A stretch of 28,543 bases of DNA from a virus. The stretch lies in IMG/VR virus record IMGVR_UViG_3300010370_000176, positions 1-28,543 of that record, one strand, 5' to 3'. Position 1 is the first letter of the stretch, and each line of letters begins with the position of its first letter. Of the stretch, positions 8,149 to 10,605 are shown piece by piece. A model generated the notes under the pieces. The model was not told the origin of the DNA, did not search any database, and saw only the letters and a list, made by a program, of their open reading frames with translations. Position numbers and translations under genes: made by a program.

Positions 8149-8156
8149 GATAAATA
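8149..8156 (+). promoter_or_regulatory. T4-type late promoter octamer GATAAATA
   Basis: GATAAATA fits the NATAAATA late promoter pattern of T4-like cyanophages (T4 itself TATAAATA). It lies immediately after a stop codon and 21 bases before the ATG at 8178, the expected place for a late -10 element, and suggests that the next gene is a virion gene. Confidence 0.72.
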
Positions 8157-8177: not shown

Positions 8178-9086
8178 ATGAAGACGTATTCCACATTTAT
8201 TACAGAAGCAACTGCTGCACAAGCTGCACGGTCTGGAATGCGTATTCCTGGTGGTCAACTGCTAAGAGGAGCAGGAAGACTTGCCAGTAGAGCAGCTGCA
8301 CCAGTTGGCGCTGCAATTGATGCCAAAGATGAATATGAGCAGCGCAGAAAAGCAGGATTTAATCAAGCGCAATCTGGTACTGCTGCTGCTTTAAAAGCAG
8401 GTGGAGGTTGGGCAGGCGGTGCTGTAGGAGCAGCAAAAGGTGCTGCTCTAGGTGCTGCACTTGGTAGTGTAGTTCCTGGTGCTGGTACTGCAATTGGTGC
8501 TGGTATTGGCGGTGTTGCTGGTGGTATTGCTGGATATATGGGTGGGTCTGCTTTAGGTGGAAAAGCAGCAGATCTTGTCGTTGGATCTTCAGCGGAAAAG
8601 GCAAAGCAAGCGCAGTTGAAAATCCAACAGCAAATGAAGCAAAACCAACAAAAACAGCAGCAACAGCAAAAAAATATTCAAAGACAAACAGTTGCCGCTG
8701 CTGGTGGTAGATCTGGGCAAGTACAAACAAATACAGCATACCAATCAAAACTAGGTGGCGCTAAAGCAACAACCACTTATGGTGCTGGTGGTCAGCAAGT
8801 AGTTAGAGCAAACCTAGGAAATCAAGGCGTAAATAAAGTTGCTCAAGGCGGTGCTCAGGCAGGAAAAGCATATGGAGCGACTCTAGGTGGAGTAAAGGGA
8901 ACAGTAACTTATGATGCAAAAGGTAATAAGTCATTCCAAGCAACAAAACCTGCTGCAAAACCAGTTGCTAAACCAACACCAAAACCAGTTGCTAAACCAA
9001 CTGCTCAGCAGCAAATGAGACAAAGAATACAAGCAAATAAACCAAAACCAGCACCACAACAGAAGAAAATGTTTGGATTATTTTAA
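8178..9086 (+). CDS. Putative internal head protein with glycine zipper, 302 aa
   Basis: The first residues, MKTYSTFITEA, align without gaps to the capsid-targeting sequence of T4 internal proteins (MKTYQEFIAEA), including the I-x-E|A site cut by the T4 prohead protease gp21 after residue 10. The rest has four parts: a basic segment (20-60), a Gly/Ala-rich glycine-zipper hydrophobic stretch (about 73-136) likely to form a membrane hairpin, a Gln/Lys-rich helix (140-170), and a Gly-rich region with a 21-residue repeat (191-211 and 235-255, pattern LGGxKxTxTYxAxG) followed by a KPVAKPTPKP tail. A late promoter precedes it. I infer a protein packed in the head and injected with the DNA. A tiny frame (MPPE, from 8167) overlaps its start as ATGA. 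Confidence 0.8.
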   Translation: MKTYSTFITEATAAQAARSGMRIPGGQLLRGAGRLASRAAAPVGAAIDAKDEYEQRRKAGFNQAQSGTAAALKAGGGWAGGAVGAAKGAALGAALGSVVPGAGTAIGAGIGGVAGGIAGYMGGSALGGKAADLVVGSSAEKAKQAQLKIQQQMKQNQQKQQQQQKNIQRQTVAAAGGRSGQVQTNTAYQSKLGGAKATTTYGAGGQQVVRANLGNQGVNKVAQGGAQAGKAYGATLGGVKGTVTYDAKGNKSFQATKPAAKPVAKPTPKPVAKPTAQQQMRQRIQANKPKPAPQQKKMFGLF

Positions 9087-9108: not shown

Positions 9109-10605
9109 ATGAAATTTATTGGTCTTAGATTATGTGAGCATGATTCGAACATTAGTTATTCATGTAATCAAAAAGTTAAATATTATAAGTCTGAAAGAGA
9201 TTTTCAAGTTAAACATCATGGATTTGATGATCTTAACCAATGGACAAAAATAATTAAAAAGTGGAATATTGATCCAAAAGAAATTGATGCTATAGGAATA
9301 GTCATCGATGCACATAGGCATTCTCACTTAAAGTTTGATGAATCCAAACTTTATGAAACAGTAGACATTCCATTATTCAATCTTTTGGGATTTGAATGCC
9401 CTATTTTTAGGGTGGATCACCATTATGCACACTCTTTGGGTAGTTGGTGTTTAGGTATTGACCAAACAATTTCATTTGTATTTGATGGATTTGGGGACAA
9501 CTTCTCAAGTCATACTATTTTTAAGTCTAATGAAAAAGTTTTAAACTTCAATTATACAAACGCTCCATCTTTAGGTGTTATTTTATCAATGTTAGGAGAG
9601 CAGATTGGAGTTAGTGGCACTCAATACGATCAAGCTGGTAAAGTTATGGCATTAAAAGGTCATGGACTATTGCCAAAAGAGTTTATCAATGCTGAAAAAC
9701 AAAGACTTTCAAGATACAATATAAATTTCCTAGATTATCTGTGGAATTTGAATTCTTCATCATTAATAGATCAAGAAATATACAATCATATACAAATATG
9801 TCATGAAGTTACTGAGGATATATTTGCAAATCATTTTAGAGATTATAGTGAAGAAAATGATGTAATTTGCTATTCTGGTGGAGTAGCACAAAATACTGTA
9901 ATTAACAGTAAGATTAAAAAAGTCAGACCAAATCTTCATATTTTACCACATTGTAATGATGAAGGATTATCATTGGGAGTTATTGAATTTCTTAGAAAAT
10001 ATTTTCAACAAGAACCTTTCGATAGAACTGGATTTCCATTTTGGCAATCTGATGAAGCACCAGAAACTACACCATCGAGCGATACAATTAAAAGAACTGC
10101 AGATCATTTAGCAAATGGAAAAATTGTTGGGTGGTATCAAGGAAATGGCGAAGTTGGATCGAGAGCATTGGGTAATAGAAGTATTTTGATGAATCCAACT
10201 ATTAAAAATGGAAAAGAAATACTAAATGATAAAGTTAAACATAGAGAATGGTATAGACCGTTTGGAGCTTCGATTTTAGAAGAAGAAACCAAAAAATATT
10301 TTGACTGGGATGGAGTTTCTCCATATATGTTATATGTAATGGATATCTTAGATAAAGAAAGTTTCCCAGCAATTACACATGTTGATGGAACTTGCAGGAT
10401 ACAAACTGTTTCTCAAAATTCATCAATTTACTATAATTTAATTGATGAATTTAGGGAATTGACAGGAATACCGATGGTATTGAATACTTCATTAAATAAT
10501 GGAGGAAAACCAATATGCGGATCAATAGCTGATTCTCTAGATCTTTTTAGTTCTACTAATTTAGATATATTAGTTGTTGGTAATGAAATTTATGAAAAAA
10601 CTTAA
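9109..10605 (+). CDS. Carbamoyltransferase (NodU/CmcH/TobZ family)
   Basis: The 498-residue protein has the two-part layout of O-carbamoyltransferases: an N-terminal Kae1-like ASKHA domain with the metal-binding segment DHHYAHSLGSW and SFVFDGFGDN, and a C-terminal YrdC-like domain with GNGEVGSRALGNRSIL, REWYRPFGAS and GIPMVLNTSLNNGGKPI. Family members transfer a carbamoyl group from carbamoyl phosphate to a sugar or other hydroxyl via an adenylate. The substrate is unknown; modification of a surface glycan or small metabolite is possible. Length is slightly below the usual 550-600. The gene is clearly more AT-rich than its neighbours, with many AAT, ATT, TTA and AAA codons, suggesting separate acquisition. 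Related genes are known in other cyanophages. Confidence 0.93.
   Translation: MKFIGLRLCEHDSNISYSCNQKVKYYKSERDFQVKHHGFDDLNQWTKIIKKWNIDPKEIDAIGIVIDAHRHSHLKFDESKLYETVDIPLFNLLGFECPIFRVDHHYAHSLGSWCLGIDQTISFVFDGFGDNFSSHTIFKSNEKVLNFNYTNAPSLGVILSMLGEQIGVSGTQYDQAGKVMALKGHGLLPKEFINAEKQRLSRYNINFLDYLWNLNSSSLIDQEIYNHIQICHEVTEDIFANHFRDYSEENDVICYSGGVAQNTVINSKIKKVRPNLHILPHCNDEGLSLGVIEFLRKYFQQEPFDRTGFPFWQSDEAPETTPSSDTIKRTADHLANGKIVGWYQGNGEVGSRALGNRSILMNPTIKNGKEILNDKVKHREWYRPFGASILEEETKKYFDWDGVSPYMLYVMDILDKESFPAITHVDGTCRIQTVSQNSSIYYNLIDEFRELTGIPMVLNTSLNNGGKPICGSIADSLDLFSSTNLDILVVGNEIYEKT

Follow-up and report, generated by a model that had tools for sequence, protein, structure and literature searches.

A 302-aa protein encoded on a 28.5-kb viral fragment is probably a late protein of the head interior in a T4-like cyanophage; it starts with a T4-type leader and would be cut during head assembly and persist as a basic mature protein that is bound to DNA and ejected with it. 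By DNA, the nearest annotated relatives of the window (the whole stretch analyzed, 28,543 nucleotides) are T4-like phages that infect Synechococcus and Prochlorococcus. The ORF at 8178-9086 lies directly ahead of a NolO-type carbamoyltransferase gene (9109-10605), and carbamoyltransferase and thyX are neighbor genes that the window shares with phage S-T4. The protease and scaffold genes of the head machinery are absent from the window fragment. The gene and its parts are as follows.

8149..8156, + strand: late-promoter-type octamer GATAAATA, 21 nt ahead of the ATG; homologs retain it 14-30 nt upstream
8178..9086, + strand: internal head protein candidate gene, 302 aa plus stop; an ORF with homologs L002 and L240-L242
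8178..8207, + strand: predicted capsid-targeting sequence MKTYSTFITE, residues 1-10; equal to T4 IPII/IPIII at positions 1-4, 7, 8 and 10
8205..8210, + strand: predicted prohead protease cut between Glu10 and Ala11 (between 8207 and 8208); the only L/I-x-E site in the protein
8394..8585, + strand: Gly/Ala-rich stretch, residues 73-136; 36% Gly, best 19-residue hydropathy 1.38
8586..8702, + strand: Gln/Lys-rich linker, residues 137-175, from composition
8703..8963, + strand: duplicated basic beta-module, residues 176-262 (strands in 187-212 and 231-255); 72-76% identical in homologs
8964..9083, + strand: Lys/Pro-rich tail with a KKMFGLF end, residues 263-302; the KK(M/F)FGLF end is kept in L002 and L240-L242

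A T4-type leader with a single predicted cut site

The original prediction claimed that the N-terminus aligns gap-free with the T4 internal proteins, with I-x-E and then Ala at residues 8-11, and our comparison confirmed this. The start MKTYSTFITEA is identical at 8/11 positions, without gaps, to MKTYQEFIAEA of IPII/IPIII in the T4 genome, I8-x-E10-A11 included. The identity covers the positions mapped genetically in T4, namely 4 and 7 for targeting and 8 and 10 for cutting: in the T4 IPIII leader, targeting resides in residues 4 and 7 and processing in residues 8 and 10, gp21 cleaves after L/I-x-E, and T4 leaders are 10 to 19 residues long (PMC9026906). The aromatic targeting residues are Y4 and F7, as in T4 IPII/IPIII (F4 and F7 in relatives), and the leader ends with an L/I-x-E site, in the form I8-T9-E10 before A11. 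The DNA pattern ATGAARACNTWYNNNNNNTTYATHNNNGAR, which codes for MKT[FY]xxFIxE, has a single match in the window and none in 100 dinucleotide shuffles. When scored with a profile built from the N-termini of other proteins, this start reaches 24.2 bits; the runner-up among the 1944 start codons in the window reaches 16.4, and the top score in 20 shuffled windows is 15.0.

A leader of the same type is found on cyanophage NMNAT proteins, whose relatives were retrieved by a query without the first 79 residues, so that there was no selection on the motif. The motif was present in 73/78 usable loci. Across 35 distinct N-termini, residues 1, 2, 4, 7, 8, 10 and 11 are invariant (35/35) and residues 3, 5, 6, 9, 12 and 13 are variable, a pattern to be expected if these phages use the T4 code. 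Shared ancestry contributes to the invariance, since position 14 does not vary either and many loci are close relatives. The invariance of positions 4, 7, 8, 10 and 11, beside variation at 3, 5, 6 and 9, in a protein detected in virions by mass spectrometry speaks for the proposal that the 302-aa protein is packed into the head and cut after Glu10, which we regard as well supported by inference from relatives and published virion proteomes. The identity with T4 at the mapped residues, the single L/I-x-E site and the kept octamer speak for the same proposal, which the original prediction had made. The further claim that the protein is injected is a reasonable extension from T4.

A late-type octamer precedes the gene

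The late-type octamer predicted ahead of the gene, at 8149-8156, is indeed present, 21 nt before the ATG. The number of such sites does not count as evidence by itself, as the window has 7 ATAAATA sites against 9.4 expected, no more than chance, and only the position of the octamer is informative. TAAATA-type sites are enriched 10-35 nt before gene starts, where 5/28 sites lie versus a 2% background (P=2e-4, with the gene starts chosen by hand). In viral contigs, a late-type octamer lies 8-45 nt upstream of 51/130 motif-bearing ORFs versus 125/632 control ORFs (P=4e-6). All relatives of the 302-aa protein have the octamer upstream, in several cases directly behind a terminator-like hairpin and T-run. 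In L241 (3488-3532) and L243 (1619-1663), the hairpin with its T-run passes directly into the late octamer (TTTTTTTATAAATA), making a compact terminator-promoter junction between genes.

The signal in other T4-like phages and their virions

A motif search of T4-like genomes, which had been proposed as a check, gave 15 matches to a looser motif in ten genomes (1.97 Mb) and 0 when the motif was reversed. The strict motif was found in at least 120 stretches of viral contigs, at the front of many unrelated proteins. The matches in T4 are IPII, IPIII and gp61.1. The last (AF158101 18966-19130, minus strand; L141) is a 54-aa hypothetical protein with the start MKTFKEFIKED and is a candidate packaged protein.

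Across four cyanophages with published virion proteomes, 4/5 proteins marked by the DNA pattern were detected in virions (P=0.005; one in S-SM1, one in S-SCSM1 and two in S-CREM2), a small sample in which NMNAT recurs and for which the proteome authors themselves raise co-purification. The sole looser-motif match in S-SM1 is the cytidylyltransferase T4-GC190, which is reported in virions (PMC3037559), and the sole match in S-SCSM1 is NMNAT, which both the annotation and the published proteome list as a virion protein (PMC9602691). The looser motif matches gp6 (SAM hydrolase) and gp154 (cytidylyltransferase) in S-CREM2, and with slight relaxation of the motif gp13 and gp14 (APH-like kinase) also match; all four belong to the 52 proteins, from 219 genes, that were found in virions (PMC10665884; P=0.003). 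S-SZBM1 gp191, and gp192 under the relaxed motif, carry the signal and were undetected in virions, and the cytidylyltransferase gp140 of the same phage, with the start MRFRQFIIEA, was detected (PMC9146016). The undetected gp191 is either a counterexample or a limit of mass spectrometry depth. It is a small conserved cyanophage protein (OL473597 122311-122628; MKSFKSFLSESVNISGDFNGNLY...) that also occurs in S-T4 and S-SRM01 (L150, L152). Taken together, the matches suggest that the leader is in general use for cargo loading in T4-like cyanophages. In the open-access literature, "capsid targeting sequence" and "cyanophage" were joined only in the T4 review.

In the virion-detected, Cas9-annotated S-CREM2 gp12 (OR473000 7704-10313, minus strand), the sequence LRFASFMAEAA lies ~17 residues after the annotated start. 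The real start of this gene may be later, which would give a targeting-type leader.

A new, very basic protein family with a duplicated beta-module

Homologs of the 302-aa protein are encoded at L002:2953-3774 and in L240-L242, three contigs with an identical protein; all lie in IMG/VR contigs. Their starts, MKTFEQFYTQAKEIQDLNE and MKTFEEFYNQAKEAQNLNE, keep the aromatic residues at positions 4 and 7 and lack Glu10, and their only L/I-x-E site is at 17-19 (L-N-E); every family member has exactly one such site. Net charges are +32 for the 302-aa protein and +22 and +23 for the relatives. A tblastn search of annotated phages with the whole protein and with the module found no direct relative (a weak partial match in S-SRM01), and no relative turned up when bacterial and archaeal genomes were scanned. 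Sequence searches of Pfam, NCBIfam and PDB were empty or at chance level, and the internal head protein profile phrog_3499 aligned with residues 1-50 at only E=0.089. The family and its beta-module are new, in that they match no described Pfam/NCBIfam family; the mechanism is already known from T4.

The best conserved part of the protein is residues 176-262, built of a duplicated unit of the form YxxxLGGxKxTxTY...G, in which the homologs differ mainly at third codon positions. The original prediction overlooked this module, as it did the homologs with their leader, single L/I-x-E site and octamer, and the fact that many cyanophage proteins share the signal. The module was modeled as two three-stranded meanders with moderate confidence (pLDDT 66.8; 46.7 in the AlphaFold model of the whole protein), and a Foldseek search with the module model gave no significant match (best E 0.29 in BFVD and 0.16 in PDB). 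A profile scan located the module in 16 viral loci. In L243-L248 (e.g., L244:1781-4258), it ends proteins of 690-1019 aa that have a HAD-type phosphatase motif (DVDETLF), a weak polynucleotide-kinase match and several L-x-E sites. An internal YEYWKQFIxE element lies just before their Gly-rich part and module, and the residue after its Glu is Ala in 4/6. These proteins are possible packaged precursors that would be cut into separate proteins. In L249-L253, the module belongs to proteins that start with IKGLIEAYSKVHETPEVLSE and similar sequences and have L-x-E sites near the N-terminus. That the module occurs together with protease-type sites and late octamers speaks for a putative role inside the head for the proteins that contain it.

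Only four Glu and four Asp occur in the 302-aa protein; given this and its net charge, a basic, DNA-associated role fits better than membrane insertion. T4 internal proteins are packed within the DNA and contact it through lysine (PMC3012670), and by this analogy the protein is most likely a very basic, DNA-associated, co-ejected head protein.

We also considered a tape measure protein or tail-associated lysin and rejected it. The PHROG matches cover only the Gly/Ala-rich stretch, which aligns with internal segments of profiles 577-1441 positions long, and are composition-driven, and the size of 302 aa and the empty Pfam/NCBIfam searches argue further against this assignment.

Discussion

On the basis of these data, we propose a putative route for the 302-aa protein. 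After late gene expression, the first ten residues would act as a T4-type capsid-targeting sequence, in which Tyr4 and Phe7 would draw the protein into the prohead core. The prohead protease would cut after I8-T9-E10 and leave a very basic mature protein of 292 residues among the packaged DNA. By analogy with the T4 internal proteins, this product would leave the head with the DNA at infection, and its body, which holds the beta-module and the Lys/Pro tail, most likely binds the phage DNA both inside the head and as it enters the cell. What can be read directly from the sequence is the signal, the single cut site, the charge, the octamer and the conserved module; packaging and cutting are drawn from relatives and published proteomes, and ejection and DNA binding by analogy only. 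Against this explanation, no member of the family is reported in a virion, the closest homologs lack Glu10, and S-SZBM1 has its non-detections.

An alternative is that the protein, once packaged and cut, acts as an injected early effector that disables host defense or regulates the host, like T4 Ip1-Ip3. The T4 proteins with the same leader are injected anti-restriction proteins that inhibit type IV restriction enzymes (PMC12373910), and the cyanophage proteins that bear the signal include likely regulators, such as a SAM hydrolase and a kinase. However, the body of the 302-aa protein is of low complexity and very basic, unlike a compact inhibitor, and resembles no known inhibitor or enzyme; its best conserved module also occurs in several other proteins predicted to be packaged, which points to a general role. 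We therefore regard an effector as unlikely.

A component of the prohead core or scaffold, which would enter by the leader and aid head assembly with no delivery to the host, seems less probable still. Head assembly is indeed slower in T4 IPIII mutants, and the gp22 core is purified together with internal proteins, but T4 core proteins are cut into several fragments (PMC9026906), whereas the single site predicted here is at the very start; cutting should therefore leave the body inside the head, from which it could exit with the DNA.

The original prediction held that a glycine zipper in residues 73-136 may insert in the host membrane, and we find this part weakly supported. A membrane-active ejection protein, whose Gly/Ala-rich stretch forms a path for the DNA, would agree with a helical stretch that has many G/AxxxG/A steps of repeated small-residue spacing and with the weak PHROG matches to tail lysins and tape measure proteins. 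Nevertheless, the best hydropathy of 1.38 falls short of the value usual for transmembrane segments, relatives do not preserve the stretch in detail, and its structure model has a pLDDT of <50, which leaves this reading improbable. An accidental resemblance of the N-terminus in a tail or cytoplasmic protein would suit a short motif in a family never found in a virion, but it is very improbable given the shuffled (0/100) and reversed-pattern (0 in ten genomes) controls, by which we rejected chance, and given the leader kept in relatives and the late octamer.

The DNA-bound, co-ejected head protein that we prefer resembles known systems in part. It shares with T4 IPII/IPIII leader residues 1-4, 7, 8, 10 and 11, a predicted late-type promoter in an otherwise non-structural region, and a predicted basic mature protein; the mature bodies are unrelated, however, and the 302-aa protein is longer and of low complexity, with the duplicated beta-module and Lys/Pro tail. 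Cyanophage NMNAT/cytidylyltransferase (T4-GC190) and S-CREM2 gp6 and gp14 have the same leader type in T4-like cyanophages and were detected by mass spectrometry in purified virions, but these are enzymes, with no similarity beyond the leader. The L243-L253 proteins, predicted from viral contigs to be packaged, have the C-terminal-type beta-module, L-x-E sites and the late octamer, whereas their N-terminal parts are much larger or differently built, one group being HAD-type. Virion proteins of the SSZBM1_139 type (S-SZBM1) are likewise very basic and Ala/Gly/Lys-rich, and they are packaged in cyanophage virions; they have no T4-type leader, and the likeness seen is one of composition rather than of sequence.

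We tentatively suggest, as a broader idea that could well prove wrong, that the T4 targeting sequence is a general loading code of T4-like cyanophages for a large set of unrelated cargo proteins, including metabolic enzymes, kinases, SAM hydrolase and basic DNA-associated proteins. To this, the 302-aa family would add a mobile, duplicated basic module, and an internal signal in the HAD fusions would let the prohead protease release separate packaged proteins from one precursor. The prediction can be tested with existing isolates and data. If true, it would explain the presence in cyanophage virions of NMNAT, SAM hydrolase and a kinase, which the proteome authors could not separate from contamination. 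The ten-residue code of T4 would then be readable in the genomes of the main viruses of ocean cyanobacteria and would give a list of the proteins delivered into the cell along with the DNA.
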